Of a stretch of DNA of 21,273 nucleotides, positions 2,222 through 20,549 are shown piece after piece. Made by a program: the position numbers and the translations under genes. The DNA comes from a virus. The notes below the pieces were generated by a model that was not told the origin of the DNA, did no database searches, and saw only the letters and a list, made by a program, of their open reading frames with translations. Position 1 is the stretch's first letter. Each line of letters opens with the position of its first letter. The stretch lies in IMG/VR virus record IMGVR_UViG_3300031857_001639, positions 1 through 21,273 of that record; one strand, given 5' to 3'.

Positions 2222-2972
2222 TGCTAAACACATTAGGGCATTCAATCAAACGCTTCTCATGCCCGAAATAATCCAATACACAGCCTTCTTCAGCATTGAA
2301 CCATTGCTGCACATGGTCGTCTAATCGGCTGTTAAAGTTTTGCCGTGCAGATGAGTTTTCCAACTTGCGCCTGATGTTGTTGCGCACAAATGAAAAGTGG
2401 TGCATTTCAATTTCTGACCTGCTAAATGGCAAAAACTTAGTCGTGTGCATCCTGCGGGTTGGATCAGAATAAACCGGATAATGGTCAATCATGGCGTGCG
2501 ATTTATCAATGCGATGAAACAACGGCACATAATACTCCTCCGGAGGCCACAGCTTTAATGTAGGCCGTTTGTAATACGTTTGCATTTTGCAGGCTGAACC
2601 GTCAAAATCTGACGCAATAAAACGCTCATAGCAGGTTTGGTACTGGTCTGTATGATAGTACTCATCGCAATCCATGTGAGCCATTACGGTGCAGCCGTTT
2701 TTCTTACAATAATCAGCGCCTATTTGCCGCTTGGCCTTTTCCTTTTTAATCGGGATGCTGCCATTTGTTTCAACAACCGCAATTTCATCAATTAAGCCCA
2801 GTTCACAAAGGCGCAAACATTCTGAATACCCACCGGTATAAAATTGGCCGTGATTCGAGGTTGTTTGAACCACGGCCACAATGTAATCAGCAATGGGACG
2901 CACGCACATGATGGAGCCGTCAAGCAGTTCTTCACCGTCAAAAACATTGTATGCAATACCAAGTTTGTGCAT
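2211..2972 (-). CDS. Glycosyltransferase-like protein (GT-A fold)
   Basis: This 253-residue protein is the last gene of the sugar cassette. The pattern fits a GT2-type nucleotide-sugar transferase: a beta strand at about residues 30-38 (YIVAVVQTT), a second at 63-69 (EIAVVET), and the acidic metal-binding motif D101-C-D103 (AHMDCDEYY). It has no signal peptide or membrane segment, so it should act in the cytosol. The ATG at 2972 overlaps the stop of the preceding gene (TAATG), as is usual in this operon; an in-frame ATG at 2978 would add two residues. Donor and acceptor are unknown. Its 3' end overlaps the convergent gene by 11 nt. Confidence 0.7.
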   Translation of the reverse strand: MHKLGIAYNVFDGEELLDGSIMCVRPIADYIVAVVQTTSNHGQFYTGGYSECLRLCELGLIDEIAVVETNGSIPIKKEKAKRQIGADYCKKNGCTVMAHMDCDEYYHTDQYQTCYERFIASDFDGSACKMQTYYKRPTLKLWPPEEYYVPLFHRIDKSHAMIDHYPVYSDPTRRMHTTKFLPFSRSEIEMHHFSFVRNNIRRKLENSSARQNFNSRLDDHVQQWFNAEEGCVLDYFGHEKRLIECPNVFSINL

Positions 2973-3190
2973 TACCATTTATTTTTTGGGCATTCCTCAT
3001 CCATTGCCCTGTGCTTGGCAGGAAGATAGCACCCACACCCGCCATTGCGCAGTTTGCAATATTTGCTTTTGCCAAATTCGCTTACAGGGCAGGCATCACA
3101 AATCCCCTTGCGTTGCTTTGCCACATCTTCAACCAACTCTTTTGTGAACAGCAAATTGGTAAAACCTTCAGCTATTGATTTTAGATTCAT
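2972..3190 (-). CDS. Cysteine-rich small protein, putative Zn-binding
   Basis: This 72-residue protein has six cysteines: C31 and C34 (ICDACP), C45, C52 and C54 (GGCGCYL), and C67 (EECPKNKW). The pairing suggests a zinc or other metal site, and the closing CP..KW reminds me of small proteins in other Bacteroidota phages. I cannot name a function. It sits between the methyltransferase and the last glycosyltransferase with 4-nt and 3-nt start-stop overlaps, so it is co-translated with the cassette and may be an accessory or scaffold for it. Confidence 0.62.
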   Translation of the reverse strand: MNLKSIAEGFTNLLFTKELVEDVAKQRKGICDACPVSEFGKSKYCKLRNGGCGCYLPAKHRAMDEECPKNKW

Positions 3191-3822
3191 GCAGGCAATA
3201 TTACAATTACGCCACGTTTTGCACCGGTTGCCTGGCTGTTGTACTCCACGCGGTATTTACCCGCGCCATATATCGCTTCAATACCGTCTTTGATGTAATC
3301 CCATTCATATACGATTGAGCCGTATGTATCAAATCCAAGTTCAGCATTGCCAAGTACTTTAAAATCATGTATCGCAATAACAGGCTTAAATCCGTATTCT
3401 TTAATCAGTGCCAGCTCATCAAGCAGCGGGTTGTACTCGCCCCAATGCGCATCCAAAAAAAATAACGTGTTGGGCTTTTTACCTTGCTTTGGCCGTGCTT
3501 CAAAAATGGCTTTTAATACTTCAGCAGAATTGCCAAAGTGCATGTTTACATTTTCAACTCCGGCAAGTGTTTCTTTTGCTGCGGCAAAGTTCTCAGCATT
3601 AATTTCAATGGTGTCAACCTTTGCAGCCATGTTAGCAAAGTGCCGCGTAGTTGCGCCCCTGAAAGTGCCGGTTTCAACAATCCAAGTAATTTTGTTTTCT
3701 GTGGTGATTTTTTCAAACCATTCCTTGAGGAAGGTGTCGCCCTCAAAGCCAAGCGCATTTTGCGCCAAGTATTGTTTATTGTTCATAAGATAAAATTGTT
3801 TCAGTTTTGTAAGTAGGCCCAT
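3187..3822 (-). CDS. SAM-dependent methyltransferase (class I, Methyltransf_24-like)
   Basis: This 211-residue protein has a Rossmann-type motif I at residues 49-56 (VETGTFRG), the acidic residue closing strand 2 at E73 (DTIEIN), a GNSAEVL segment at 98-104, and LDAHW (123-127) plus HDF (152-154) typical of methyltransferases found with sugar and secondary-metabolite genes. It probably methylates a sugar or the glycan acceptor made by the neighbouring glycosyltransferases, using S-adenosylmethionine in the cytosol; the acceptor is inferred from context. The start is ATG at 3822, which overlaps the previous gene's TGA (TGATG); a GTG one codon earlier is less likely. Confidence 0.78.
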   Translation of the reverse strand: MGLLTKLKQFYLMNNKQYLAQNALGFEGDTFLKEWFEKITTENKITWIVETGTFRGATTRHFANMAAKVDTIEINAENFAAAKETLAGVENVNMHFGNSAEVLKAIFEARPKQGKKPNTLFFLDAHWGEYNPLLDELALIKEYGFKPVIAIHDFKVLGNAELGFDTYGSIVYEWDYIKDGIEAIYGAGKYRVEYNSQATGAKRGVIVILPA

Positions 3823-4496
3823 CACATTCCTTTCATTTTAAAAATGGTTGTATCGGTAACAGGCCAATCTTGCCCAACGTAGCACAAATGCTCAGTAGGC
3901 TCATGTAATATGGGGTTGCTTATTTCAGTATGCACGGCAAGTGATAGGCATGTTTGGTCTTGCCGGTGAAACAAAAAACGCGAGTCTTTGCTGCCCCATC
4001 CGTGATGACGAGGACCGTTAAATATGCCATCTTTTGCTGATTGTAAAAACAATTCGCACACCGCTTCTGCGTCTAAATTGGACAAATCAAGTCCAAAAAC
4101 GCAACTCCAAATCTCAGGTAAATGCTCTGCCGTGTTGCGGCTTATGTTAAAGTATTCCAATGCCTTGTCATTACTTGTTTGCGCGCAGTTGTAGCCCGAT
4201 TTTATAAAGTAATAGCCATCGCGCTCAATAATGTCAAAGATAGGCTGTATGTCTTTTATAGCCCATATTGAACAATCCAACCAAAGGATGCGTGTTGCGC
4301 CTTGGTGAATGGCCGTGTAAATCTCTGCCGCCTTTACCGTGTACGGGCAGGAGTGCAAAAAGTACGGGTTGGTGTCAAGGTTTGTTTTGCTAAATGACAA
4401 TTCAAAACCTTTCATGCCTTGCAATGATTCACGCAGGCGTTTTTGCCCATCTGCATACCAACCGTTGCCAGTATAACCGTTAATTACTACATTCAT
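3822..4496 (-). CDS. Glycosyltransferase-like protein (nucleotide-diphospho-sugar transferase type)
   Basis: This 224-residue protein has the layout of a GT-A-like sugar transferase: an N-terminal strand VVINGY, then a strand ending in an acidic motif at residues 69-78 (RILWLDCSIW), and a later HRQDQTCLSL segment resembling the catalytic-base region of such enzymes. A D-x-S motif stands in place of a canonical DxD, so activity is less certain than for its neighbours. No membrane segment or signal is seen. Its ATG overlaps the stop of the upstream gene by 4 nt. The tail of the protein (VGQDWPV) has no clear match I can name. Confidence 0.6.
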   Translation of the reverse strand: MNVVINGYTGNGWYADGQKRLRESLQGMKGFELSFSKTNLDTNPYFLHSCPYTVKAAEIYTAIHQGATRILWLDCSIWAIKDIQPIFDIIERDGYYFIKSGYNCAQTSNDKALEYFNISRNTAEHLPEIWSCVFGLDLSNLDAEAVCELFLQSAKDGIFNGPRHHGWGSKDSRFLFHRQDQTCLSLAVHTEISNPILHEPTEHLCYVGQDWPVTDTTIFKMKGM

Positions 4497-5074
4497 TTGG
4501 CTGCTGTTTTATGTGAATCGTGTTGGTACAGGTGCAAAACGTGCGGAATGTGATGGCTTGTTTCGCACAAATCATTTATTGCTTGTGAAAATGGCTCATC
4601 TTCGCCCCAATTTGAATCTCCGAATAAGCAATTTTTGGCAATTTCTGTAAGGTAAACATTGCAATGCCATGCGGGCCGCTCAGTAATGCCATTTGAATTA
4701 AACGCTTGCAACTCGCCTTTGTGCTTAAAATGTACAATGCTATGCGCGGTGTTTATGCGCGCAAGCTGATTGAAGGTGATCAAATCAACATTGGTGTCAT
4801 GTATCGCGTTGCAAATCTCGTACACGTAATTGGCGGTCACATAGTCATCATCATCCAACATAGTGCAGTATTTGGCGTTTGCTTTTAAAGCCAAGTTTAC
4901 CAATTCCTGGCGCTTTTGTCCAATGCTTAACTGCTTATTGTCAATTAATGTAATTATTTTTACCTGCTCAGGCCGTTCATATTCAGATATTTGGCGCTGC
5001 AACTCGTCAAATATTAATTTCAGCTGTTCAATTCTTTCAGGAATAGACGGTATAAGTATAGCTAATGTTTTCAT
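4493..5074 (-). CDS. Glycosyltransferase family 2-like protein
   Basis: This 193-residue GT-A domain has an N-terminal strand (LAILIPSIPER), a D46-N-K-Q-x-S-I-G-x-K-R segment, and the metal-binding acidic motif D74-D-D-D77 (TMLDDDDYV). A later GEDEPFSQAI segment resembles the ED catalytic-base motif of GT2 enzymes. It aligns without gaps to the next gene upstream through residue 77, so the two are tandem paralogues. It is cytosolic, with no membrane anchor. The ATG overlaps the upstream stop (AAATGA). Sugar donor and acceptor are unknown. Confidence 0.8.
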   Translation of the reverse strand: MKTLAILIPSIPERIEQLKLIFDELQRQISEYERPEQVKIITLIDNKQLSIGQKRQELVNLALKANAKYCTMLDDDDYVTANYVYEICNAIHDTNVDLITFNQLARINTAHSIVHFKHKGELQAFNSNGITERPAWHCNVYLTEIAKNCLFGDSNWGEDEPFSQAINDLCETSHHIPHVLHLYQHDSHKTAAK

Positions 5075-5673
5075 TTAGTAAACCCGTATTTTTTATTGTG
5101 TGGTATATGTGTGGTGTACCTATAGTGAAACATGGGCTTATTGATAAACACCTCATCCTTGCACAGCAAGGTCACTTTATCGCTATACTCTTTATCCTCA
5201 CCAAAACGTTTATCAAGAAAGCCTACCAATTTTGCAATGTAAGACTTGACCGGATTGAAATGCGTTACGTTACGCACATAGTCATATCCTGCATAGTTAT
5301 CTTTCCAGTCAGGAAATTGCAGGCTGTGGCAGCACATTTGAGGTTGCCGGCCATTGGTGGTCATGCGTATAAGCATACCAATACAATCAGGCTTTGTTTC
5401 TAATGCGGCCACCACTTCAGCCACATAATACGCCTCCGGCCAATCGTCATCATCAAAGAATACAACGTACTCACCTGCGGCCATGTCAAGCAGCTTTTGC
5501 CTTTTTGCGCCAATAGTCATTTGCTTATTGTCGCTAATGCTGCACACCTCCACAATGTCTTGATACTTGTTAATCTCAATTTGGCGGTTAAACTCCTGAA
5601 CCAATTGATTAAACTGCTGCTGACGTTCCAGCACCGTTGCTATCAGTATCGATAGTTTTTTGTTTGAGTTCAT
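5071..5673 (-). CDS. Glycosyltransferase family 2-like protein, paralogue of its neighbour
   Basis: The 200-residue form begins at ATG 5673. Its first residues (KLSILIATVLERQQQ) line up with the start of the downstream paralogue, which supports this start over a 27-residue longer one at 5754. It has DNKQMTIGAKRQ at residues 48-59, the acidic motif D74-D-D-D77 (FFDDDDWPE), and GEDKEYSDKV later, equivalent to the catalytic-base region of GT2 enzymes. With this start the gene overlaps the preceding 75-codon gene by 65 nt, the longest overlap in the cassette. Confidence 0.8.
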   Translation of the reverse strand: MNSNKKLSILIATVLERQQQFNQLVQEFNRQIEINKYQDIVEVCSISDNKQMTIGAKRQKLLDMAAGEYVVFFDDDDWPEAYYVAEVVAALETKPDCIGMLIRMTTNGRQPQMCCHSLQFPDWKDNYAGYDYVRNVTHFNPVKSYIAKLVGFLDKRFGEDKEYSDKVTLLCKDEVFINKPMFHYRYTTHIPHNKKYGFTK

Positions 5674-5836
5674 CGTATTTCTGTTTGTAAAAGGTGATGA
5701 TGTTTTGCGCAATTTCTGATTGTGGGTCTGCTGCAATGGAAAGCAAATGGCCAACCATTATACGGTTTTGCTCGCTTGCTTTTTCAAATGCTTTCTTCCA
5801 CTTGTTGCGTTCTGTTTTAAATGCTTTGCCGCTCAT
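5609..5836 (-). CDS. Hypothetical small helical protein, 75 aa
   Basis: Its ATG overlaps the upstream stop (ATATGA), the same coupling used throughout this unit, which argues that it is real. Residues 5-60 are charged and helix-forming (FKTERNKWKKAFEKA; FYKQKYDELKQKT), suggesting a short coiled coil. The last dozen residues (TDSNGAGTSAAV) are low complexity. The 3' third overlaps the following glycosyltransferase gene by 65 nt in another frame. No function can be assigned; it may be a partner of the adjacent transferases. Confidence 0.5.
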   Translation of the reverse strand: MSGKAFKTERNKWKKAFEKASEQNRIMVGHLLSIAADPQSEIAQNIITFYKQKYDELKQKTIDTDSNGAGTSAAV

Positions 5837-6537
5837 ATTTGTTTCAGTTTACTTTTTACCCAATTAATAGTGCCTTGGTCTTGTATTTTGCCAACCGGAT
5901 TATCGATATCAAACCCGCGCTTCCAATAATCCAAAAAAACGCGTTCGCCTTCGTTCCATGTTGCATCAGCCCGTTGGCTTACGCTATCTTTTTTTATGCC
6001 ATCAGCCTGCGAATAGTGCTTATGCCTAAAGTGCAAATTGCTCACAATCTTGCGGCCTAATAAATCAGCCACGCAGGTCATGTGCGTGTCGCAAAACATG
6101 TGCTTGTACATGGGCGGGTAAATGTAGCCAAAGCGGTTATAATACTCCCTATCCATTATTGGCAGCGTAATTATCCACCCTTGCGTGCCGTCTTGCGTTT
6201 TTAGAATCCAATCTTTGCAGTCGCCTACCTCAGCAGCAATAAGTTCATCCCAATGTACGGCAGGCTCAAAATCATCGCTAATGCAAATAAGCACTTTGCC
6301 CTTTGCCACGCCTGCCGCATTGTTTACCGCTTGCACCGTTGATGATGGCACAGGATTGATAAATACCTGATTGGATGCAAACAAGCGCATGTATTCATGC
6401 AATTGCGGGTCATCTGCGTCAATGCTCAAAATATACTCATACGTGTGCAGGCTACTAATGTTTGACATCCACTTTTGGTATGTCTTGTACGCCAAATGAG
6501 CTCGGCCACGGCTGGGATGTATTACGCTAAATTTCAT
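5833..6537 (-). CDS. Glycosyltransferase-like protein (GT-A fold)
   Basis: This 234-residue protein starts with a typical GT-A opening (FSVIHPSRGRAHLAYKTYQKW), followed by a strand ending in D40-A-D-D43 (LSIDADDP) and S87-D-D-F90 (ICISDDFEP), the likely metal/nucleotide-sugar site. NNAAGVAKGKVL (72-83) matches the N-x-A-x-x-x-A-x-G helix region seen in GT2 enzymes. The start is ATG at 6537, overlapping the previous stop as TAATG; a TTG two codons earlier is less likely. It is soluble. The role is inferred as sugar transfer to a phage-encoded or host acceptor. Confidence 0.75.
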   Translation of the reverse strand: MKFSVIHPSRGRAHLAYKTYQKWMSNISSLHTYEYILSIDADDPQLHEYMRLFASNQVFINPVPSSTVQAVNNAAGVAKGKVLICISDDFEPAVHWDELIAAEVGDCKDWILKTQDGTQGWIITLPIMDREYYNRFGYIYPPMYKHMFCDTHMTCVADLLGRKIVSNLHFRHKHYSQADGIKKDSVSQRADATWNEGERVFLDYWKRGFDIDNPVGKIQDQGTINWVKSKLKQI

Positions 6538-7220
6538 TAGCAAAGGTTTTTTATTTTCTGTGGATGAAAGGCTAAATACGTGCTGAATATACGCTCAGCA
6601 ATAAAGGCGTGCATAGTGTAATAAGGTTTGCCAATGCTGCGCATTAGTTGCGCTTCTGTATTATGGTTGGTATTGCCAACCCTGTACGGCATACGCTTGT
6701 TTAACTCATCCTGCAAATCCTGATGGGTTTCCAATACGTTCACGCATGGAAGCAGCCAATTGTCAACAAAATCTTTATACACGCTTAATTTGGTCACATG
6801 CGCGTTTTGATACACCACCGGAGTGCGCGGTATGGTGCGCAGGTTAAAATGAAAGCCAATGCGCTTAAACATTTCCTCTGCCATCATAATTATCCCATTG
6901 TGCCATACTTCGCCCTTTTGCCAAATGTTTGGATGCGTAAGCGCTGAAAAAAAGGTGTAGACATCATGCTTATATTCATCCTGCTCAATGCGCAGGCGCA
7001 AGTTGCTGATGCTAATTGGCACTTTCATTTCGAATTTCCATGAAAGCACGCCAAGGTAATCGCAGGCAAAGTCATTGGAAGCAAACAAATCGCAAATAGT
7101 ACGGCTTTCTAATGTAGGGTATGGCTCAAACCGCTTGCTGTTATCAATGCCAATACACCCAGGATGCAGCTTTGCCTTTGTTTCAGGTGAATAGTAAATT
7201 TGATACAGGTCTGTTTTCAT
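6537..7220 (-). CDS. Glycosyltransferase-like / polysaccharide-type protein, 227 aa
   Basis: The opening (LYQIYYSPETKA), the aromatic segment CDYLGVLSWKFEMK (about residues 53-66) and the closing MHAFIAERIFSTYLAF recall uncharacterised proteins of capsule and glycan clusters, where a similar F-x-A-E-R-x-x-S-x-x-L end is shared with DUF4422-type transferases. I see no clear DxD motif, so catalytic activity is uncertain. It is soluble. It overlaps the small upstream gene by 4 nt (ATGA) and the next gene by 1 nt (TAATG), placing it second in the cassette. Confidence 0.5.
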   Translation of the reverse strand: MKTDLYQIYYSPETKAKLHPGCIGIDNSKRFEPYPTLESRTICDLFASNDFACDYLGVLSWKFEMKVPISISNLRLRIEQDEYKHDVYTFFSALTHPNIWQKGEVWHNGIIMMAEEMFKRIGFHFNLRTIPRTPVVYQNAHVTKLSVYKDFVDNWLLPCVNVLETHQDLQDELNKRMPYRVGNTNHNTEAQLMRSIGKPYYTMHAFIAERIFSTYLAFHPQKIKNLC

Positions 7221-10263: not shown

Positions 10264-10539
10264 TTACTTACCTTTTACGATGTAGTGAATTTGCCGTGGC
10301 TCCTTGCCAAACTTATCAGCTAAAATAGGCACAACGCCATCAGGTATTTTTTGATAACACTCGTGGCAAAAACCGCCACGCGCATCGCATAGGTCATTGA
10401 ACTCTTTGCGTATCACATAGCGCTCCATGTTTGACATGTTAAGCACGCCACGGTCATTTAGCAAGTTAAGGATTTCAATAGGTGTTTTGTTTTCAATCTC
10501 AGCCAAAAACAGGCTTTCAAAGGTTTGTACTATTTTCAT
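10264..10539 (-). CDS. Small Cys-containing protein with HTH-like end
   Basis: This 91-residue protein has cysteines C51, C58 and C61 (LCDARGGFCHECYQK) that may bind a metal, followed at residues 65-88 by PDGVVPILADKFGKEPRQIHYIV, which has the shape of a homeodomain-like helix-turn-helix (small residue at the turn, hydrophobic spacing). It is coupled to the tape measure gene by a 4-nt ATGA overlap and precedes the head-gene promoter box. A DNA-binding regulator of head genes is possible but unproven; I recognise no named family. Confidence 0.55.
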   Translation of the reverse strand: MKIVQTFESLFLAEIENKTPIEILNLLNDRGVLNMSNMERYVIRKEFNDLCDARGGFCHECYQKIPDGVVPILADKFGKEPRQIHYIVKGK

Positions 10540-12776
10540 AAGGTTGCTTGTCGGTCAATTACAGATACGCGTGTTTGCACGTCATTTATTTCAGACACGC
10601 GCACAACTGGGCGCATTTGGCTTATTGCTTTTGCCAGGTTGCTGCTTTGCAGGGATGAAGATATTTCATTGCGTATGCCCGTTTGCACAAAGCCACCATC
10701 AGCAAAGCCCACCAATCCCATTGATGGGTTGCCGCGTCTCATTGGCTCAATAACTTTGGAAACAAAATCAGATACAAATGGATTTTCAAGTGTTTGGTGA
10801 GGTATAACATACTCGCGCTTGTGGTAAATGTATGGCTTTGGCCCGATAGCATTTGAGCGCTCATGCGGGTCGCCATCACCGGTGTAACCGCCATCATAAA
10901 ATTGGCGAGGTGCAGAATTTAATATCGCAGTTGCACGGGCAATATTTGCAAGAATAGTAGCTGATAATGTTGCTATCTTTATTGGAATACTTAAACCACC
11001 ACTCGCAATAACATCAGCGCCTTGGGTTGATGCTCTTGTTGCGCTTGAAATAGCAGCAGCAGTATCAACTGCAATTTGGAATACAGCAATCCCCTTTTGC
11101 AATTCAGCATTCTTTTCACTATTTAATGCAATTGACTGAGCCAATCCAGTCAATTCTTCAGCAAGCCCAAATGCCGCCTGCAATTCAGCGTCCCTTATCT
11201 TTTTCTTTTCTTCTTCTTCTTCTTTTGCAGCATCTATTTTCTCATCGGCAATTTGATTTTCAAGTTTAACCGTGCTTTCTCCGTAATCTTTTTGAAGTAC
11301 AAGTTGGCTATCAAGCGAATCAGTTTGCAATGAATTAATTTTCTCATTGTATTCCTGCTCAGATATTTCGCCATTTAAAAATGCGTTCTTTGCGATAAGC
11401 TCTTGTTCTGCATAATAATTTTCAAGGTTAGTAAGGCTATCTTCATACTCTTTATTGCGCGTTTCTGTTATCTTCTTTGCATCCGCTTCGGCTTGCTTTT
11501 GCCGTTCTTCTTCGGCCTTGCGTATGTTTTCCGATAACTTCGCGTAAAAGTCTGCATCATCTTTTAGCTGCTTTTCTTTCTCAGCCTTATTTTTTGCAAT
11601 ATCCTCTTGTCTTTTTTTTGCCGCGGCATCCCTTGCTGCCTGTTCAGATTCAATCAACTGATTAATACGGCCCTGTATGCGCTCTTGTAGCGCAAGGCTT
11701 TCACGTTCTAAGTTTAGCCTGTTTACAGTTGCTTCTGCTGCTTTGTTTTCAAGTTCATCTGTGGTTTGTCCTCTATCCTGCGCGCGCCTCAATTGCTGTT
11801 GCGACAATAGTTCCTCTGTTTTTGCAACTTGTAACCTTGTATTAAAATTATCCTTTTCAATTTTGCCTGCACGTTGCAATAAATCAATGCGCTCTTGTTC
11901 TGATTTTGATCTATCTTTTGCCTGAGCAAGTAAAACATCTACTTGTTTTGCGGCTTCCGCATTTCTTATTGTAAGAGTACGTTGCACATCATCTAACCTT
12001 TGCTGAAATTCAACAAACCTTTGCCCCTCTTTAAATGCTGCACTTATAGATGATGATAGCCCAGTAAAACTATTTTTTATCGCATCTATACCGCCTGAAA
12101 TATTGCCTGATAAAATTTGTGCTAATCCACCACCAAATTGTCCAACCCTGCTTATGAGTTCAGAAAAAACAGCATTTATACCCCCAAGCGCCCGCTCTAC
12201 TGGATCAAGTACATCATTAAAGCTGCCAAATATGTCAGCAAGTTTACCAATTGCGGCAATAGCAATAATCAAAGGCCCACCAGCAAACAAACTTACAGCG
12301 CTTGACAATCCATTTACAGCACCGCCAAATGTTTGCGAGTTTGCTAATGCTTCCTTTAAGGAATCGGCATAGTTACCTACATTTCTGCGGGTGTCACCAA
12401 TCGCTTTTTCTTGCGCCTTTAATTGGTCAGATAACGTCTTGATGCGGGAGGTTTGCTCAGCCGTTGGCTTTGCAATCTTTATGTATTCAGCAGTAAGCCG
12501 CGCAAGTTCAGCACGGTTGGCTGCAATACTGCCCGTTTCAGCCTGTATTTGCTTGTTGACGTTATCAATATCTTTTGTCGTTTGCCGGTACGCACTTTGC
12601 AAATCTCTGATGGCAGCGGCATTGGCCTCAAATTGCACGCGCCCCTCTTGCGTGGATGTATCAAGGTCTTTTTGTCTTCCCTTTAACTCATCAATTGTTT
12701 TGCGTAGTTCAGCCGCTTGACGGGTAAGGTCACCCGTTTCAATTACGACATTATAGATTATTGTTTCGTCTGCCAT
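10536..12776 (-). CDS. Tail tape measure protein
   Basis: At 746 residues this is the longest protein in the window. Residues 15-130 are a long charged coiled coil (TRQAAELRKTIDELKGRQKD), followed by RRNVGNYADSLKEAL, a segment I have seen in Bacteroidota tape measures. A hydrophobic, glycine-rich stretch is at about 150-185 (GPLIIAIAAIGKLA), then a second very long coiled coil (about 250-520, many KAEKEKQLKDD-type runs), a further hydrophobic part (about 560-620) and a low-complexity Gly-rich end. This is the expected make-up of a protein that spans the tail lumen, sets tail length and helps deliver DNA. A TAATG overlap couples it to the lipoprotein gene. Confidence 0.88.
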   Translation of the reverse strand: MADETIIYNVVIETGDLTRQAAELRKTIDELKGRQKDLDTSTQEGRVQFEANAAAIRDLQSAYRQTTKDIDNVNKQIQAETGSIAANRAELARLTAEYIKIAKPTAEQTSRIKTLSDQLKAQEKAIGDTRRNVGNYADSLKEALANSQTFGGAVNGLSSAVSLFAGGPLIIAIAAIGKLADIFGSFNDVLDPVERALGGINAVFSELISRVGQFGGGLAQILSGNISGGIDAIKNSFTGLSSSISAAFKEGQRFVEFQQRLDDVQRTLTIRNAEAAKQVDVLLAQAKDRSKSEQERIDLLQRAGKIEKDNFNTRLQVAKTEELLSQQQLRRAQDRGQTTDELENKAAEATVNRLNLERESLALQERIQGRINQLIESEQAARDAAAKKRQEDIAKNKAEKEKQLKDDADFYAKLSENIRKAEEERQKQAEADAKKITETRNKEYEDSLTNLENYYAEQELIAKNAFLNGEISEQEYNEKINSLQTDSLDSQLVLQKDYGESTVKLENQIADEKIDAAKEEEEEKKKIRDAELQAAFGLAEELTGLAQSIALNSEKNAELQKGIAVFQIAVDTAAAISSATRASTQGADVIASGGLSIPIKIATLSATILANIARATAILNSAPRQFYDGGYTGDGDPHERSNAIGPKPYIYHKREYVIPHQTLENPFVSDFVSKVIEPMRRGNPSMGLVGFADGGFVQTGIRNEISSSLQSSNLAKAISQMRPVVRVSEINDVQTRVSVIDRQATL

Positions 12777-13180
12777 TATTTATAAAACACCCCTGGTGGG
12801 ATGACGGTATAAAGTGTGTCGTTTTTAATGTAGTGCGGGCCTGATACAAACTTTGGCTGTGCAATGTCGTTAGTTGTAAAAAAGATGCTATCATTGCGCA
12901 ACTCGTGCTGTATTGTATCGTGGTACTCGCGGTTGTTTACATATGTGTAATGCCTTACATGGTACGTGCGGTGCAAGGCCATTGTGCCATCAATGCGTAC
13001 AATACCGCTGCGTGGCGGTTGCAGAGATGTGAAGTAATGAAATTTCCAATAAGTAGGTGAATCCGCATCAATTGGGATGATAATGGTTTTTTGAGGTGCG
13101 TCAATGCCTTCATCCTTTTGGCAGGATGTAATCGCCATGCTAACGAGCAACGCGAATAAGCTCAACTTCAGTGCTTTCAT
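12776..13180 (-). CDS. Lipoprotein with surface-export-type signal, in the tail operon
   Basis: The 134-residue protein starts with a signal peptide (MKALKLSLFALLVSMA) ending in a lipobox, ITSC, with the lipidated cysteine at C20. The next residues, QKDEG, match the Bacteroidota lipoprotein export signal (C-x-K-(D/E)2) that sends lipoproteins to the outer leaflet of the outer membrane. The mature part is beta-rich with many aromatics (YWKFHYFTSL, HVRHYTYVNN). The first 41 nt overlap the end of the upstream baseplate gene, so the signal peptide is encoded over another reading frame. Phage lipoproteins can block receptors against superinfection (T5 Llp, phi80 Cor); that role is inferred here. 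A spanin role is less likely given its length and beta-rich body. Confidence 0.8.
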   Translation of the reverse strand: MKALKLSLFALLVSMAITSCQKDEGIDAPQKTIIIPIDADSPTYWKFHYFTSLQPPRSGIVRIDGTMALHRTYHVRHYTYVNNREYHDTIQHELRNDSIFFTTNDIAQPKFVSGPHYIKNDTLYTVIPPGVFYK

Positions 13181-15191
13181 TTGAATTGGGGTTAAATTGT
13201 TTTATATTGTTGATTATAAAGTACGCACGAAAGTAATCAACATAAACGTATTTTGCAATATCCAATTGTGCAATATCCTGATTATTAAGTGCAAAACGTG
13301 CAGTTACCATGCGGAAATTGTCAATATTTGTCAATTCCTGATTGTAATAGGTTTCAATTAATCCTTTCCCGTTCCATGTGCTTAATGGCTCATTTGCCGG
13401 CATATCAAAGGTTAAGTTTACATCCCAAGTATTAATATCCGCATCATCGTAAATCTTTTTTACCATGTAGGTCATGGGAATAGTTGTTTGCGTAACAGGG
13501 GTGGTTTTTATCTTGATGCTTTGCCGTGTACCATCAGATAGCAAAGATACATCCTGCATGCCTTGGTAAATGAGAATCATTGGGCCGCATGAGTAATTGG
13601 CCTGCGTTTGGTCTTGCCCTTTCTCCCATACGTTAGGGATAATAATGTAGTCAGAAAACTGCGTGCCTGGCACAAGTGAGGCCGTATCGTATGAACGTCC
13701 ATTGTACACAATGCGGAATTTAGAACTCACTACTTCCTCAGCATCGCCATATTTTGTTTTAAGGTTGTATGAGCCATCGCCAAATAAAGTGCCGTTGCTC
13801 CATTGCTCATTGTATTGCAGCAAGCGTCTATCGTTATCAGGCTGCGTCCATGCAAAGTTCCATGTGCTTGGAATATCATCTCCGGTGTATGCAATTACGG
13901 GGCTTTCGCTTAAATCCAGCTTATTACTCCAATCCACAAAATCGCGCCCAAAAAAATCATTGTACGTGTTCATTGTGAGCGTGCGCGTTACGGGATTGTA
14001 TTGCACCACCATATTGAACAACTGCGCTATTTCTTTTATAAACTCAATTTGTTTCCAACGTGGCAAGCAATACGATAGCTGTACGGTTGATTGGCTATAC
14101 ACCACATCTTGCGGTGTAATATTCAACTTTAAATCTCTTATAACAATATATCCAGTAAAAAATCCGCCATCAAAGTTTACCGTGGCGCGTAGCTTCCAAT
14201 TATTTAATAAGTTGACGGTAACATTTATTTGATAAAATTGAGCAATACTTACATCTTCAATACCTCCGCCTTCCACATCGTACCAATTGATGCCGCCATC
14301 GTCTGAGTATTCAAGTTGAACACGCGGGATAGAATCACTTATGCCATACCCAACAACAACAAATGTTAGTCTTATGTCAGCTGTTTTCCCTTCGTTACTT
14401 GTGTAAATGTAATTCACGTTGTCCCATTCATTTAATGGATCGCTCACTTCGTTATTCGCCCAAAGCACAAACGCTCCAGTACCAAAATAGGTTGTATTTG
14501 TATTTCTTGTTGCTTCCACTCTGCGCTCATCTACCCATGCGGGGCTATGAACCATATCTCCGTTGCCAAACGCCACAATTAAACCTTTGTGGATAGGGTT
14601 ATTAAAAAACCGCGTATCAAGCGTAACACCTGCATCATTGCACATGGCGCGCAGTATTTTTTCTACCTTAACAGCGGGCTTCAGTTCTGAGTGAATAGTA
14701 GATGTTGTGCCTGCTGCACGCAACCGGAATAAGCCGTAATCAATCAGCGGGTAAATGTAATCGTAATTGTTTGACCACGTGGCAAACACGTCTGTATCGT
14801 TGTAGGTATGGTCAAGGTCTGACAAGTCAATATCTGACATCATCAACTCGCCAAATATCTCTTTTAGGGCAGCCACGTTTTCAATCATCACAAATTCAAT
14901 ATCGTTATCTGTTGCAGATAGGATATAGGCCATGCCCTCAAAAATTACAGCGCTATCCGATAATGCGTAAACGTGATGGCCTTTGTTTTTGTCAAATGAG
15001 GTAAACGCATTGATGTCTCCGGCCAAGCCAAATGCGGAATCATTGTTTTTTGTGCGCGGGATGGTAACGGTGGTACTTTTGCCGCCTTTAACCTTTCCTA
15101 CCTCGCGGATGTCTTTAAGTGAATACGTAAAAGCTACATCCACATCCTCTGCGCCATCAAGTTCAATATTGTTTACAAATATCTGAATCAT
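13140..15191 (-). CDS. Large tail/baseplate protein (distal-tail type)
   Basis: This 683-residue protein has an N-terminus (FTYSLKDIREVGKVKGGKS, then TVTIPRTKNNDSAFG, residues 22-55) that matches the opening of distal-tail/baseplate proteins of Bacteroidota phages, where a similar S-x-T-x-x-x-P-x-T-K-x-N motif occurs. The rest is beta-rich with many Tyr and Trp. A segment at about 385-400 (CLPRWKQIEFIKEIAQLFNM) resembles the helix of baseplate hub domains. It probably caps the tail tube or forms the hub for receptor-binding parts. It is coupled to the previous gene by ATGA and overlaps the lipoprotein signal peptide by 41 nt. It lies upstream of the tape measure gene, the reverse of the usual order. 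Confidence 0.55.
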   Translation of the reverse strand: MIQIFVNNIELDGAEDVDVAFTYSLKDIREVGKVKGGKSTTVTIPRTKNNDSAFGLAGDINAFTSFDKNKGHHVYALSDSAVIFEGMAYILSATDNDIEFVMIENVAALKEIFGELMMSDIDLSDLDHTYNDTDVFATWSNNYDYIYPLIDYGLFRLRAAGTTSTIHSELKPAVKVEKILRAMCNDAGVTLDTRFFNNPIHKGLIVAFGNGDMVHSPAWVDERRVEATRNTNTTYFGTGAFVLWANNEVSDPLNEWDNVNYIYTSNEGKTADIRLTFVVVGYGISDSIPRVQLEYSDDGGINWYDVEGGGIEDVSIAQFYQINVTVNLLNNWKLRATVNFDGGFFTGYIVIRDLKLNITPQDVVYSQSTVQLSYCLPRWKQIEFIKEIAQLFNMVVQYNPVTRTLTMNTYNDFFGRDFVDWSNKLDLSESPVIAYTGDDIPSTWNFAWTQPDNDRRLLQYNEQWSNGTLFGDGSYNLKTKYGDAEEVVSSKFRIVYNGRSYDTASLVPGTQFSDYIIIPNVWEKGQDQTQANYSCGPMILIYQGMQDVSLLSDGTRQSIKIKTTPVTQTTIPMTYMVKKIYDDADINTWDVNLTFDMPANEPLSTWNGKGLIETYYNQELTNIDNFRMVTARFALNNQDIAQLDIAKYVYVDYFRAYFIINNIKQFNPNSNESTEVELIRVAR

Positions 15192-17047
15192 CGTGTTTGG
15201 CTGATTATATCGTACGCGTAAATGGCATCCAATACAAGGCTGTATCTTTTATCCCCGTCTTTGCGTATGTCAATGCTATCGTTTTCAATTTGCACCGGCA
15301 AAAAGTAGTTTACCCCGTCAACGGTTTGCTCCAGGTAAACATCAATGCTTGTCATCAATTCATTGGCAAGCCATGTGTTGATGTCTTTATTCATTGTTTC
15401 ATTGCGCAAGGTTATCCGCTTGCGCCCAATGTTGCGCAGGTTGGCGTATTGCCTGTTGCTTGGTTCAAACCTGCCCGCTACCAAAGCATATTTGATTGGC
15501 CGTTGGCGGTCAACTTCAATGCCGTGAGTTGCGCGGCCGGTAAAGTAGAACGATGAGTACCCGCCTTTGTTGTTCAGCCAAACCAACTTGTAGTACTTAT
15601 CTGTGCATTCGCAGTTTTGCTCAACTGAAAAACAAACGGGCTGTGAATCTTCGGTGATTGTACTGTGAACGTGTAGGTTTGACAATCTGAACTCATTGGC
15701 CACATTGTTGTTGTCGTAATATGTGGCTTGCAAGCGCAATGTTGGACCATTTGCGGTGAGTGTAAATGTATGCGTACCTGCTGTACTGATGGTGTGCGTA
15801 CTTGTGCCATTGCCACCGGCATCAATAGTTATCACTCCTGATGGCTGATTATTTGTGAATGCCAAAGTAATGCGAAACTCGTACTCAATGCCATTGGCAA
15901 GTACGTTTCTATCCATGTAGCCATTAACTGATAAGGTAGGCAACGGGATGGTATTTTGGTTAAACAGCGCGCCTTGGCTGCCAAACACAATATTCACCCC
16001 GTTATCCTGCAATGACCAGGAGCCAAGCTGTTTTAAGTTATCGTGAAACTGATACTCAGGCAATGATGCGGTAACGCATATTTTGGCTGCATTGGCGTTA
16101 AGCGTAAATGTTTCATTTGATATTTCAACAAGGTTCTGCCCAAGTTCCACATCTTCATATTCAATCTCAGAAGTGGTGATTAAATTGCCACCACCTCCAT
16201 ATTGTTCTACATTGAATACAATGCTGTGATTAGTTTGCAGGTTATCGGCATTAAAATACAGCCAATATTTTCTATCTGCGCAATAAGGCACGCCATCAGG
16301 CTGATTGGTAAGCAATCTCACCGTGCCATTGTCAATACCAAATACGTATTCAGATTGTTTATATGGATCGCCAATGTTCTCATCGTATTGCTCAGTTGAA
16401 TTTACGGCCACTTTATCGTTGGTGTCATAATAGCTGCTGTCTGTATCGGTTTCCCAATCCTGCGCCACGTATTGCGTAATGCCTGCAACGCCACGTACAT
16501 ATTCCTCACGGTACTCAATGTAAAACGATTTGAACGCATCAGGGCAGTGCTGTACTGAGCCATTGCGCAAATCGGGCAAGTTTGATGTAATGTAGTTGCG
16601 CAGCACGGTTGAGACGTCAAACGTAAAAATAATATCCGTGCCGTCATCAACGGGCTTGGTGGTTATTGTGCCAATATCGGTAAACACGTTGTCAATCTCA
16701 GCCCATACGCGCACGCTTGCATTGTACTGAAACGCATACCAATATCCCGATGTGCAATTTTGCCCTGCTGTGGCATTTACGTCAATGATTGTTTGTGCTG
16801 AACCTGGGCAACTAATCACGCGGTACGCACCGGAGAAGTCAGAATTAATATAAACATAATCACCTGAGCGCATTCCGTGCGCTGTTGACCATGTGATTGT
16901 CAAAAAACCGTTGGTTTCGCCAATGACTGCCGGTGTAAGCACGTTACCTATACGGTAGCCCGTGGCAAAGCTGCTCTTAAATTTGTAAATTATTGGCGCG
17001 TAAACCGATGACCACCGGTTAGGCTGCTGTACTCGTGCGATTGCCAT
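15188..17047 (-). CDS. Large tail protein with carbohydrate-binding-like module
   Basis: This 619-residue protein is nearly all beta by composition. Residues 370-460 (NGIEYEFRITLAFTN; STAGTHTFTLTANGPTLRLQ; FRLSNLHVHS) have the strand pattern of jelly-roll carbohydrate-binding or galactose-binding-like modules. The C-terminal part holds C-x-C pairs (NCECTDKYYKLVWLNNKGGY) and a domain with RKRITLRNE. Together with the following gene it likely forms the tail tip or side fibre, and the sugar-binding-like module would suit adsorption to host glycans. The functional call is an inference. The start ATG 17047 overlaps the upstream gene by 29 nt. No catalytic motif of a depolymerase is seen. Confidence 0.5.
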   Translation of the reverse strand: MAIARVQQPNRWSSVYAPIIYKFKSSFATGYRIGNVLTPAVIGETNGFLTITWSTAHGMRSGDYVYINSDFSGAYRVISCPGSAQTIIDVNATAGQNCTSGYWYAFQYNASVRVWAEIDNVFTDIGTITTKPVDDGTDIIFTFDVSTVLRNYITSNLPDLRNGSVQHCPDAFKSFYIEYREEYVRGVAGITQYVAQDWETDTDSSYYDTNDKVAVNSTEQYDENIGDPYKQSEYVFGIDNGTVRLLTNQPDGVPYCADRKYWLYFNADNLQTNHSIVFNVEQYGGGGNLITTSEIEYEDVELGQNLVEISNETFTLNANAAKICVTASLPEYQFHDNLKQLGSWSLQDNGVNIVFGSQGALFNQNTIPLPTLSVNGYMDRNVLANGIEYEFRITLAFTNNQPSGVITIDAGGNGTSTHTISTAGTHTFTLTANGPTLRLQATYYDNNNVANEFRLSNLHVHSTITEDSQPVCFSVEQNCECTDKYYKLVWLNNKGGYSSFYFTGRATHGIEVDRQRPIKYALVAGRFEPSNRQYANLRNIGRKRITLRNETMNKDINTWLANELMTSIDVYLEQTVDGVNYFLPVQIENDSIDIRKDGDKRYSLVLDAIYAYDIISQTR

Positions 17048-17534
17048 TTAGATTTAGTCTTTGTTTAACTACTTCAAATACTGATTGATTGATGTTTTGC
17101 CGTATTTCGTTGGTTGTACGCTCGCGGATGGCTTCAAGGTATTCTTTGCCTTCGCTGTTGTTACCATAAAACCCCTTTTGATGCACCTTGCGCCAAATAA
17201 GATAGGCTTGTTCATCGGCATTCATAGCCTTGCGCCCTTTTTTGCTTTCCTTATACCAAGTCCCAACGCCTTTATCGCGCGCCCATTTCTTTGCATCTTC
17301 ACGGGTAAATGAACCATTGCCCGTGCCGCGTGTTGGCCCGCGTCCTTTATCGGTAAAAAATATACCTGGGTTGCCGTAAACCACCATTTTTACAGCGGCA
17401 TCCGTTGAAGTTATCTCGTACCGCAATGAACGGGATGATTCACCGGAGGCATTGATGTTAAGCGATTCCATTGCCTGCTGTACCTCAGCGATAAATTGCT
17501 GCGCAATCCGTTCAAGTTCCTGTTCAATTTGCAT
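17019..17534 (-). CDS. HK97 gp10-like head-tail/tail completion protein (putative)
   Basis: This 171-residue protein starts with a charged helix (IEQELERIAQQFIAEVQQAM), followed by SLRYEIT and GIFFTDKGRGPTRGTG, the R-S-L...Y-x-x-x-x-G-x-G pattern of the HK97 gp10-like family, whose members take part in connecting head and tail. A Lys/Arg-rich segment lies at about 83-107 (DAKKWARDKG, KKGRKAMN). It lies between another small structural protein and the tail tip genes, which fits. Overlaps of 11 nt and 29 nt couple it to its neighbours. Confidence 0.55.
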   Translation of the reverse strand: MQIEQELERIAQQFIAEVQQAMESLNINASGESSRSLRYEITSTDAAVKMVVYGNPGIFFTDKGRGPTRGTGNGSFTREDAKKWARDKGVGTWYKESKKGRKAMNADEQAYLIWRKVHQKGFYGNNSEGKEYLEAIRERTTNEIRQNINQSVFEVVKQRLNLNGNRTSTAA

Positions 17535-17979
17535 AAGGCAAGCAGCAGTAGTCTATATCCGGTGTAAGTTGTAAGGTAAATTGATACTCCCAGCCAATGT
17601 TTACGTCATCCTGCACTTTGAACAATTGACGCTTGGTAATTGACGTGGATATGGTATATTCATCAGACGCATCCATGAGCGTGTAAACAAAGCCATCGGC
17701 AATTGTTTTAGTCATGTTGTACAGATTGTCCACATCATCAAAATCTTTTGCTAATTCAGTTGACGTAACAAAGCGCAAGGTTATTGGCCAATTCTCATAT
17801 CGTTGTTGCTGGCTATTGGTTTGCGGGTCAGTAACGGTAAGCGGCAATACCCACCACACAAGCGGGTAGTTTTTGTCGCTCTTGTTCATTTCGTTTAACG
17901 TGCCATAGCCAAATGAAAGACTCCCTTGATATTGGCTTGCAATGGTTTGAAATGCTGATTTGATTGACTTGTACGACAT
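17524..17979 (-). CDS. Putative tail completion/minor structural protein, 151 aa
   Basis: I do not firmly recognise this protein. The sequence (NYPLVWWVLPLTVTDP; WPITLRFVTSTELAKDFDDVDNLY; ISTSITKRQLFKVQDD; WEYQFTLQLT) has an alternating strand-helix layout reminiscent of tail terminator proteins, and the position just before an HK97 gp10-like gene supports such a role. The start chosen is ATG 17979 (MSYKSIKS), because a -7 box lies only 6 nt upstream; an in-frame start at 18006 would place the box inside the gene. It begins a new transcription unit that appears to run to the tape measure gene and beyond. Confidence 0.45.
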   Translation of the reverse strand: MSYKSIKSAFQTIASQYQGSLSFGYGTLNEMNKSDKNYPLVWWVLPLTVTDPQTNSQQQRYENWPITLRFVTSTELAKDFDDVDNLYNMTKTIADGFVYTLMDASDEYTISTSITKRQLFKVQDDVNIGWEYQFTLQLTPDIDYCCLPYAN

Positions 17980-18019: not shown

Positions 18020-18798
18020 TTATTTGTGCTTGCGCTCAACTATTCGCTTGTACGCTTTTTTGTAATCATTTAGGCTTTTTTCGTAAAGTAAAAACGAATA
18101 GACCTCATAAACCGATAGCTTTGCAACCGCATCCATCCGCAATATATCGCCACCGGCAAGGCTGTGATAGGTAGCGTAAAAGCCAAACGGAGCAAGGTTA
18201 TTAATTCCTGCCGCTTCCTCATCCACATCAGGCTCGCTGTGTAAGCCCTCAAACTGAGATTCAACCCTTTCAAATTCCGCAAAAAAAAATTGAACAGCTG
18301 CAAGGCGGTCACGCAGTCAAGTTGCATGAACAATTCTGCGCGCTCATCAATCTTAGTGTGGTCGTACTCCTCACCAACTGGACGCAGGAAATGCGCCAAG
18401 GTGCGCGGCAATATCGCCAATGGATCGGATTCCACGTAGTTCTTCAGTTCAAATTGCTGCCAATCTTTGTAGCATCCAATAGGCGCGTTACCCATATCAG
18501 CATAATAAGTCCAGGTTTGCCCCTTGAACAGAATGGAGCGGGCAAGGTCATCTTGTGTAAATGCTGACTTGTCTTTGATGAAAGCGCAAAGGTTGGCAAT
18601 TTGCTCAAATGATTCCAGCGATACGCGCTCAATTGTTTTGGCATCCAGATTAAGCAGGATGGCGTAAATGTCAAATACATCAGCTTTGTCGCCAAGTTGG
18701 ATAATTCTGTAGTATTGCAGGAAGCTCACATCGCGCCATGAGGTTGGGATGCTTACCGCTATTTTGCTGTTTCCGTGTTTTAGGTTTGCTTTAATCAT
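18020..18798 (-). CDS. Putative tail assembly chaperone made by -1 frameshift
   Basis: The frame starting at ATG 18798 encodes IAVSIPTSWRDVSFLQYYR, an opening shared with uncharacterised Bacteroidota phage proteins, and runs 172 codons to a T9 run at 18289-18281. In frame zero it would continue with unconvincing sequence to a stop at 18070 (242 aa). One base back, the reading continues as FAEFERVESQFEGLHSEPD..., then FYATYHSLAGGDILRMDAV and a helical, Lys-rich end, stopping at 18020 (259 aa), which looks like genuine protein. Tail assembly chaperones of many tailed phages are made as such -1 fusions; here that role is inferred, as the gene lies after terminase and far from the tape measure. 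A missing T in the assembly (T10) is the main alternative. TTG at 18807 is a less likely start. Confidence 0.6.
18281..18291 (-). promoter_or_regulatory. Slippery site T-TTT-TTT for -1 frameshift
   Basis: On the minus strand AAT-TTT-TTT-TTG in frame zero contains the heptamer T-TTT-TTT in the correct phase for -1 slippage. After slipping, the next codons are TTT and GCG, entering the longer conserved-looking frame. No strong stem follows within 10 nt; only a weak 4-bp hairpin (CTCA/TGAG) is seen about 20 nt downstream. RNA-polymerase slippage on T9 is another possible mechanism. Confidence 0.5.
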
Positions 18799-18809: not shown

Positions 18810-18834
18810 TTATACGATTGTTTCAAATATCAAA
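18805..18834 (-). promoter_or_regulatory. Promoter inside the end of the terminase gene
   Basis: TTTG (18834-18831), 18 nt, then TAAATTTG (18812-18805) match both Bacteroidota boxes. The -33 TTTG overlaps the TTT-TGA end of the terminase large subunit gene. The ATG at 18798 is 6 nt beyond the -7 box. Confidence 0.55.
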
Positions 18835-20137
18835 AACCTTTGCTGACAAAACTACCAACATACCCGCTTCGTTTGTAGTCAAAATACTTGCGCATCATGA
18901 GCGCATCACGGTAATCCGGTGATCGCCCAATGTTTTGCTTTACCATTTCTTTGGGCAGTATGCGCAACTTTCCGTCCTTATCGGTTTGGTAACTTCGTAG
19001 CTGTTCAAGCTCCTCTTTTATTAACTCCACATCAGCAGGCGCAACCTCGCAGGTAATGGATAGCTTGTGCGTGTTTATAGCTTCAGCAAGGCCGTAGCAG
19101 CATTGCGCTTGTAGGTTGTAGTAGTTATCATCACCAAACGGTTTGGAGTTGTTTAGAAAACCATTAATGCGCGCCATATCAACCAAACCGCCACCAACGC
19201 CATCCTCATCCGCAATACATTGGCTTGCTGGTATGCTGTATTTAGTGCGCAACGCGGTGATTACTTGGTTTAACTCCGTTAGCTTGCTAAGGTCAAAGGT
19301 ATGTATTTCAATAACTGACCAACCACGCCACACCATTATAACGGCCTTGTCAGAACCCATACGCGCCACGTCTGCGGTTAGGTAATGTTTGTCGGTGTTA
19401 TCCGGAATGTTAGTGAAAATATCGCAAATAGCATCGTAATCGCACAGCGCATCCGGAGAATCATCGTATTCCCAATTGCCAAACAGAAGGCGTTCCTTTT
19501 TTGCCTTGTCTTTGGTATTCATGAGGTTTTCAATGTAGTCTTTTGTGAGGTACGGGTTATCCTGCACAAATGCCTGGATAAACTTAATGTGGCTTGGCAG
19601 CCTATTTTCACGGTGTGGCTTGTAAACCTCAGAATAAAGCCAATTCTTTTTTGGGTTGCACGTAACAAACAGCTTGCTGATTAGGCCATACTCAGCATTC
19701 ATGTGGCGGCCGGTACGTGTTTTAAGCACCTCGTATGCACCAAAGTTGGTTTCCCCTCCTTCCTCAATCCATCCTCCGGTATATTCAGTTGAACCAAAAC
19801 GTTCATAAAGCGGATCGGATGGCATGTAACGGATATCAAGCAGGTCAATTTGTGAATGCCCAACGGTGAGAAAGTTGTATTTGCTGTTCATTTTGTAAGG
19901 CACGCCCAATGAACTGGCAACCTTGGCAAATGTGACCAACGTGGACTGCGTGATGCGCTTCAGTTCCTCACGGGCAATAAACCAACGGCTGTTTGGGTAA
20001 GCTATGCAAACCGTGATAAGCCAAAAGCAGCCAAGGTAAGATTTGCCACCTCCGGCCGCGCCACCGTAGAATATTTCCTTTGTGTTGTTATCGGTGAGGT
20101 ATTTATACGCTTCAATCTGCTTTGCCGTCCCCTGCAT
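18830..20137 (-). CDS. terL: Terminase large subunit
   Basis: This 435-residue ATPase-nuclease drives DNA packaging. It has Walker A at 25-33 (GGAAGGGKS) after FYGG, an arginine-containing segment WFIAREELKRI (52-62), Walker B at about 119-126 (YTGGWIEE) and an SKLFVTCNP motif consistent with the coupling motif. The C-terminal RNase-H-like nuclease shows TADVARMGSDKAVIMV (first acidic residue), CIADEDGVGGGLVD (second) and SPDYRDALMM with D408/D411 (third). All key residues seem present, so it should be functional. It overlaps the small subunit gene by 26 nt. In tailed phages it docks on the portal, whose gene here is at the far end of the window. Confidence 0.95.
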   Translation of the reverse strand: MQGTAKQIEAYKYLTDNNTKEIFYGGAAGGGKSYLGCFWLITVCIAYPNSRWFIAREELKRITQSTLVTFAKVASSLGVPYKMNSKYNFLTVGHSQIDLLDIRYMPSDPLYERFGSTEYTGGWIEEGGETNFGAYEVLKTRTGRHMNAEYGLISKLFVTCNPKKNWLYSEVYKPHRENRLPSHIKFIQAFVQDNPYLTKDYIENLMNTKDKAKKERLLFGNWEYDDSPDALCDYDAICDIFTNIPDNTDKHYLTADVARMGSDKAVIMVWRGWSVIEIHTFDLSKLTELNQVITALRTKYSIPASQCIADEDGVGGGLVDMARINGFLNNSKPFGDDNYYNLQAQCCYGLAEAINTHKLSITCEVAPADVELIKEELEQLRSYQTDKDGKLRILPKEMVKQNIGRSPDYRDALMMRKYFDYKRSGYVGSFVSKGF

Positions 20138-20549
20138 CTTTGTTTACAAAGTTGGAAACAATGCTTGACAAGTCAATGGGTTTTATCGCTTCGCCATCGC
20201 TGGTGATGTCAATGCGCTCGCTATACTTCTTTGGCTTTAACTTGGCCGCCAAAAACTTACGGCTGTCAATGCGAAGCCTATCCCGTTGCACGGCATTGGA
20301 GCCATTGATTCCCTTATTGTCGTTTTCGATATTGTCTGCTATTTCAAGGATTTCATCGGCCAATAAATCAGCCTGTTGCTCTCGCGCGTGCGCGTATTTG
20401 TTAGCAAGTTCAGCATCATTCTTAATCCACTCATAAAACTGAACTGAGCTTATATCGTGTTTTTTGCAAATAGCCTGAAGGCCACGTGGTGATGTGGCAA
20501 TGGCTTTACAAATGCTATCAAACAACTCCGCTGTAAACTTAGCCTTCAT
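20112..20549 (-). CDS. terS: Terminase small subunit (Sf6 gp1-like)
   Basis: This 145-residue protein has an N-terminal helix-turn-helix (SPRGLQAICKKHDISSVQFYEWI, about residues 20-42) and then the conserved block LADEILEIADNIENDN...VQRDRLRIDSRKFLAAKLKPKKY. This block is typical of Sf6-type small terminase subunits, which bind the pac/cos site and hand DNA to the large subunit. It overlaps terL by 26 nt and the preceding 60-codon gene by 11 nt, so it is translationally coupled on both sides. Confidence 0.88.
   Translation of the reverse strand: MKAKFTAELFDSICKAIATSPRGLQAICKKHDISSVQFYEWIKNDAELANKYAHAREQQADLLADEILEIADNIENDNKGINGSNAVQRDRLRIDSRKFLAAKLKPKKYSERIDITSDGEAIKPIDLSSIVSNFVNKDAGDGKAD

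Follow-up and report, generated by a model that had tools for sequence, protein, structure and literature searches.

Frameshifting in the genes for phage tail chaperones is textbook ribosomal recoding. In the tail modules of phage lambda (gpG/gpGT) and phage HK97 (gp13/gp14), two overlapping ORFs are joined by a -1 shift, and a short form is made together with a C-terminally extended one. For dnaX, the shift is made by the ribosome in Escherichia coli and by the polymerase in Thermus. The slippage sites of Thermus dnaX and of IS elements are nine-base A/T tracts (A9/T9) within coding sequence, with a conserved shifted-frame product. In Shigella mxiE, two overlapping ORFs are joined by an extra non-templated U at a U run, which gives a longer product (PMC1088944), a direct precedent for the mechanism proposed below. 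The gene analyzed here shares the two overlapping ORFs joined by a -1 shift in a tail module, the nine-base tract with a conserved shifted-frame product, and, probably, the extra U.

Two further described cases are located, as this gene is, after the gene for the terminase large subunit (TerL). Gp3 of Elizabethkingia phage TCUEAP1 (QGZ15838.1; phrog_28240) has a C-terminal domain (C-domain) homologous to the one described below, with 37.5% identity. In the Nonlabens phages P12024L (gp40+gp41) and P12024S (gp38+gp39), the layout after TerL, a run of nine T (T9), and a C-domain in the -1 frame are all present. In open-access papers, no report was found of this gene family or of a phage tail chaperone made by transcriptional slippage; subscription papers and preprints were outside this search.

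Organization of the Two-Frame Gene

The window analyzed here (21,273 bp) corresponds to an entire IMG/VR contig. A T9 run (U9 in the mRNA) is located on the minus strand at positions 18289-18281, within the codons CTG TTC AAT TTT TTT TTG CGG. The frame-0 ORF (18070..18795, minus strand) is open from ATG 18795, or possibly from TTG 18807, and its stop ends at 18070; it encodes a 171-aa N-terminal domain (N-domain) up to the run and a 70-codon frame-0 tail. The -1-frame ORF (18020..18283, minus strand) is open from the run onward, with a stop ending at 18020, and encodes the C-domain, modeled by AF2 as a set of helices (mean pLDDT 74). Counted from the ATG, the unshifted product has 242 aa, and the predicted trans-frame (fused) product (18020..18795, minus strand) has 259 aa. 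Across the joint, the fused product aligns with single-frame homologues.

In alignments, the N-domain is homologous to proteins of L035, L086, L091, L127, and other loci; a family search with the frame-0 protein of the window gave no match. The -1-frame part matches phrog_28240 (E 1e-4) and gp3 of phage TCUEAP1 (E 1e-7), as well as many homologues. Because the C-domain homology is found in the -1 frame, the true C-terminus of the gene lies in that frame. Thus, the proposal of the earlier note that two frames are joined at T9, with a -1-frame C-domain reaching 18020, is confirmed by the ORFs and by the homology to phrog_28240 and TCUEAP1 gp3. The same note had also argued from the exact phase of the heptamer T_TTT_TTT (18289-18283). 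This argument has no weight, since a heptamer in phase is present in every T9, regardless of register.

In all other genes of the window, about 0.11 sense-strand runs of at least nine T were expected by chance (synonymous shuffling), and none was observed. The length of the run, for which a choice between T9 and T10 had been left to resequencing, is the same in a second IMG/VR assembly (L002), which is identical to the window across 9,308 nt, T9 included.

Distribution of the T9 Joint

In total, 69 two-frame homologous loci were found. They encode 61 distinct proteins, which group into 49 clusters at 95% identity and 13 at 40%. Exactly nine T are present at the joint, in the same place, in all 69 loci. 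The first tally required at least nine T; other scans accepted T runs of at least 6-7 and A runs of at least 7-8, and T9 was nonetheless found at every two-frame joint. The residues flanking the run differ among these loci, and the joint is repeated in homologues with less than 20% protein identity. The run is read in two codon registers, [C/G]TT TTT TTT TNN and NNT TTT TTT TTR, with the first T at codon position 2 or 3, respectively.

Relatives of TerL led to the single-frame homologues L034, L012, and L013, as well as to L035, the protein of which is ~20% identical to that of the window and the layout of which is the same, with T9 in the corresponding position. When L035 and alignments of joined proteins were used as queries, further viral contigs, an Alistipes MAG, and many Bacteroidales genomes were found; in one Bacteroidales family, copies were found in 28 of 101 genomes. 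Without any search for T runs, fold similarity to the N-domain model led to a protein of 175 aa in Nonlabens phage P12024S. In both P12024L and P12024S, the gene directly after TerL encodes 175 aa, contains T9, and is followed in the -1 frame by the C-domain, which is annotated as a separate gene. All relatives of this gene in other viral contigs also have T9. No T9 was found in the inspected genes of Flavobacterium phage 6H, a fold match, or of Polaribacter phage P12002L.

One copy with intact T9 (L200:10746-11476, at ~2.93 Mb of G526:C1) is located amid chromosomal genes, with a SusC-like gene downstream and no phage neighbors, as if a remnant had been kept intact.

Codon-Level Conservation of the Run

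The constraint on the run was visible in a single Bacteroidales clade, for which 31 distinct genes were compared. Here, synonymous difference is 0.00 at all four T9 codons, compared with 0.44-0.66 just upstream of the run and 0.47-0.59 just after it; normal values are reached already at the codon next to the run. The first Phe codon of the -1 frame (the third Phe codon) is TTT in 31/31 genes, and TTC at this place would spare the heptamer T_TTT_TTT. Elsewhere in the two-frame genes, TTC accounts for 298 of 860 Phe codons (35%). Under selection for the 7-nt heptamer alone, exactly nine T would be expected in ~13% of lineages, by a simple base-composition null that does not account for common ancestry or for constraint from the amino acids. 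The protein itself dictates part of the run: two Phe codons are needed by either mechanism of slippage, and hydrophobic residues near the joint favor T at second codon positions. Downstream of the run, the -1-frame C-domain is under purifying selection, and the shifted-frame extension is conserved among homologues, as seen from alignments and codon-position rates.

Since homopolymers are hypermutable and prone to error, and since T10 in a single frame is present in one relative, the break might reflect a sequencing or assembly error, a pseudogene, or a phase-variable tract in its off state. This explanation is highly improbable. The identical T9 is present in the second assembly, in two isolated phage genomes, and inside a single contig of 4.3 Mb; a phase-variable tract would show mixed lengths instead of exactly T9 in 69/69 loci; and purifying selection on the -1-frame C-domain speaks against a pseudogene. 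Assembly error and pseudogene were therefore rejected on the second assembly, the isolate phages, and the 69 loci, and phase variation on the uniform run length of the two-frame loci, the single T10 being in a single-frame gene. Alignment of homologues, which the earlier note had named as the check for a conserved break and run, strongly supports a programmed -1 joint, kept in 69 of 69 two-frame loci. Judged from these comparisons of sequence, the T9 joint is, with strong support, a programmed frame switch predicted to give two protein forms.

Single-Frame Relatives

Single-frame homologues without a T run were found in L034, L012, L013, TCUEAP1, L112, and others. A single-frame relative with in-frame T10 (L129), in which the fused frame is written in the DNA, is the sole run-bearing exception reported beside L169, which has T7; the genome that carries L129 also has a paralogue in two frames. 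Two copies are present in one genome, G869 (L209:9368-10123 and L210:9897-10664); one of them has T10 in a single fused frame and the other has T9 in two frames. In the protein tree, single-frame and T9 members are interleaved, with five changes between the two states; the placement of the deep branches, that of the window among them, is poor.

These relatives manage without a switch, which counts against programmed slippage. It had been stated beforehand that homologues with a single intact frame and no run would refute the proposed site. Such homologues do exist, yet they sit among T9 relatives, and the conservation of the joint stands.

Two side observations concern these loci. Both L209 and L210 are elements in which an integrase-like gene accompanies the tail genes and no terminase is located directly upstream. 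In L169 (G1180), the T7 run, at about position 1973, reads CTT TTT TTC and is perhaps a worn remnant of T9.

Mechanism of the Frame Switch

The following mechanism is proposed. Most transcripts of the T9 gene would contain U9 and would be translated into the N-domain with the frame-0 tail. In a fraction of transcripts, RNA polymerase would slip on T9 and add one extra U (U10), and these would give the N-domain joined to the -1-frame C-domain. That the slip occurs in transcription (U9 to U10) and not on the ribosome is probable. Transcriptional slippage is favored, on indirect grounds, because nine T, not seven, are conserved; because no excess of nested RNA structure was detected near the run; because A9/T9 runs are avoided in the genes of one host genome; and because, in E. 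coli, T runs make RNA polymerase slip and U_UUU_UUU shifts ribosomes poorly.

The avoidance was observed in G526, a host genome carrying such a gene. In the genes of this one genome, no A runs of at least nine were found versus ~22 expected, and two T runs of at least nine versus 7.6 expected. Avoidance of such tracts in genes marks slippage-prone lengths in bacteria (Baranov et al., 2005; PMC1088944). Slippage by E. coli RNA polymerase occurs on tracts of seven T or longer and is biased to poly(T) (PMC6260861), and U_UUU_UUU is weakly shifty for E. coli ribosomes (PMC5009743). Thus, the features of slippage sites seen here are a T tract of about nine within the gene (69/69), a conserved shifted-frame extension, and avoidance of such tracts in the genes of one host genome.

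The alternative is programmed -1 ribosomal frameshifting at T_TTT_TTT, in which two Phe-tRNAs would slip back by one base on an unedited U9 message. This is the usual route for phage tail assembly chaperones (PMC5009743). The shift is -1 in all homologues, and the in-phase heptamer is found in every two-frame member, although any T9 provides it automatically. Several results speak against this route. Nine T are conserved, and the extra ones are kept where a change would not harm the heptamer, so that conservation covers positions outside the heptamer and is not confined to the heptamer and stimulators. In ten lineages, nested folds within 60-80 nt on the 5' and 3' sides of the run were no better than those of shuffled sequences. 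Additionally, U_UUU_UUU is a poor shifter in E. coli (PMC5009743). Ribosomal frameshifting is accordingly considered rather unlikely, and the original attribution of the shift to the ribosome gives way to RNA polymerase as the more likely agent, since a run length of nine is conserved.

The Overlap Downstream of the Run

Every member of the Bacteroidales clade has a frame-0 tail of at least 70 codons, and in 29 of 37 the tail ends after exactly 70 codons. In the -1 frame, synonymous change falls from 0.54 upstream of the run to 0.27 within the overlap and rises again to 0.49 past the frame-0 stop; the drop and the recovery have Mann-Whitney values of 3e-14 and 2e-4, respectively, for columns that are not fully independent. 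In several members of the gene group, the +1-frame tails are short (0-3 codons); stops should arise frequently in that frame. Frame-0 identity is 0.625 versus 0.613 in a null built from the observed synonymous changes, which is no excess, and openness of the frame alone is not decisive. These sequence patterns are no more than suggestive of a use of both overlap frames in this clade. The halved synonymous change over the overlap was seen in L114-L117 and L125-L158, as possible dual coding.

A broader proposal would be that, in Bacteroidota phages, slippage of RNA polymerase on the invariant T9, and not the ribosome, sets the ratio of short to long chaperone, and that in one Bacteroidales clade the 70-codon overlap is useful in both frames, giving functional tails that differ. 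In this combined form, it is speculative and should be regarded as doubtful.

Genomic Context and Predicted Function

The gene for TerL (18830..20137, minus strand; Pfam Terminase_6N 2e-9, PHROG 2 6e-25) is located directly upstream of the frameshift gene. It is preceded by a probable small terminase subunit gene (20112..20549, minus strand), assigned by its position and by relatedness to the gene that precedes TerL in L097. The next gene after the frameshift gene in complete modules, herein referred to as gene Y (17524..17979, minus strand), possibly encodes a tail terminator; its relative in L035 weakly matches the PHROG 78 tail terminator (E 0.09). It is followed by a gene for a putative HK97 gp10-like or tail completion-like protein (17019..17534, minus strand), assigned by eye and by order, for which a significant family match was not found in Pfam or PHROG. 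Two large tail proteins are encoded next on the minus strand, a Dit-like one by order (15188..17047; homologue in L091) and a hub-like one by order (13140..15191; homologues in L086 and L110); both functions are predicted. The tail tape measure protein (10536..12776, minus strand) matches PHROG 167, tail length tape measure (2e-8).

Family searches recognize TerL, the protease, and the tape measure protein around the frameshift gene. Gene Y, the gp10-like gene, and the two large tail genes (~5 kb) separate the frameshift gene from the tape measure gene, and the tube-like gene is located after the MCP gene. The frameshift gene heads a block of tail-type genes reaching the tape measure gene in the window, in Alistipes, and in the two elements without a terminase directly upstream (L209 and L210). 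Its place beside the terminase, which had been taken as an oddity, is the usual position within this gene group.

The gene order of the window (1-20549, minus strand) is unusual for a siphophage: tail genes through the tape measure gene precede the protease, capsid, tube-like, and portal genes. An arrangement resembling this one was found in L206 (Alistipes). Between the tube-like and portal genes, a series of proteins (2211-7220, minus strand) appears by eye to be glycosyltransferase-like, with related enzymes.

The N-domain was modeled by AF2 from 13 sequences with pLDDT 85. When this model was compared with 281 chains (VIA-align 2), the only match at Z of at least 2 was the HK97 tail assembly chaperone 2ob9, a weak one (Z 3.4, 78 residues, rmsd 3.8). 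Among the named viral fold matches of the N-domain are chaperones for tail assembly and for the tape measure; all of these matches are weak. With Foldseek, nothing was found in PDB at E of 0.001 or lower, and a PDB sequence search gave no match. No chaperone family of Pfam, NCBIfam, or PHROG was matched by either domain.

The protein is probably a tail assembly chaperone. A fixed ratio of short to long forms would most likely serve tail assembly, as with gpG/gpGT in phage lambda; the N-domain would bind the tape measure protein, and the long form would recruit the tail tube protein. Of the traits of chaperone genes, a second ORF joined to the first by a shift near the end of the latter is present, and a location between the tail tube and tape measure genes, immediately ahead of the tape measure gene, is absent, the gene being found directly after TerL instead. 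The designation as a probable tail chaperone in the earlier note is therefore plausible on the weak fold likeness to HK97 gp13, the weak named fold matches, and its place as the first of the tail genes; the family match and the chaperone position are lacking. For these two reasons, the gene is read as gpG/gpGT-like without placement in that family, and a function like that of gpG/gpGT is plausible.

Alternatively, the recoding may be real and the protein not a tail chaperone, acting for example in head-tail joining or as a packaging partner of the terminase. The position directly after TerL, with ~5 kb between the gene and that for the tape measure protein, and the missing chaperone family match would suit such a role. 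The modules of L209 and L210 argue otherwise: the same tail-type genes continue there up to the tape measure gene with no terminase directly upstream. Among the solved structures aligned, a tail assembly chaperone alone reached a Z of at least 2, and the named viral fold matches, although weak, include chaperones of both tail assembly and the tape measure. A role outside tail assembly is thus thought unlikely. The full explanation, a programmed two-frame gene expressed by transcriptional slippage in a chaperone-like ratio of short to long products, is somewhat favored as a whole.

Comparison With Known Systems

The frameshift gene, like gpG/gpGT of lambda and gp13/gp14 of HK97, belongs to a tail module, and its N-domain is weakly similar in fold to HK97 gp13. 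Unlike in lambda, its site is a T homopolymer conserved as nine, its mechanism is probably transcriptional, and the gene stands after TerL as the first of the tail module and is not located directly before the tape measure gene; a sequence relation to gpG/gpGT is not detectable. MxiE is a virulence regulator of one bacterial lineage, whereas the gene described here belongs to a phage structural module and is conserved across very distant Bacteroidota phages. IS elements and Thermus dnaX differ in genes and hosts: IS elements make transposase, and slippage in dnaX leads to a shorter product.

Compared with the gene of the window, TCUEAP1 gp3 has one reading frame, no T run, and a shorter N-terminal part. 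The pairs of P12024L and P12024S are annotated as two hypothetical proteins each, and their sequences, found via fold similarity, are remotely similar to the window protein. The T9 joint explains such pairs of hypothetical proteins after TerL, and gene callers likely split the T9 gene in genomes of this kind. As an isolated phage, Nonlabens phage P12024L makes a direct test of the mechanism possible. The deep conservation of the T9 joint suggests that phages of Bacteroidota obtain the same two-product output through transcriptional slippage, in parallel to dnaX of E. coli and Thermus.
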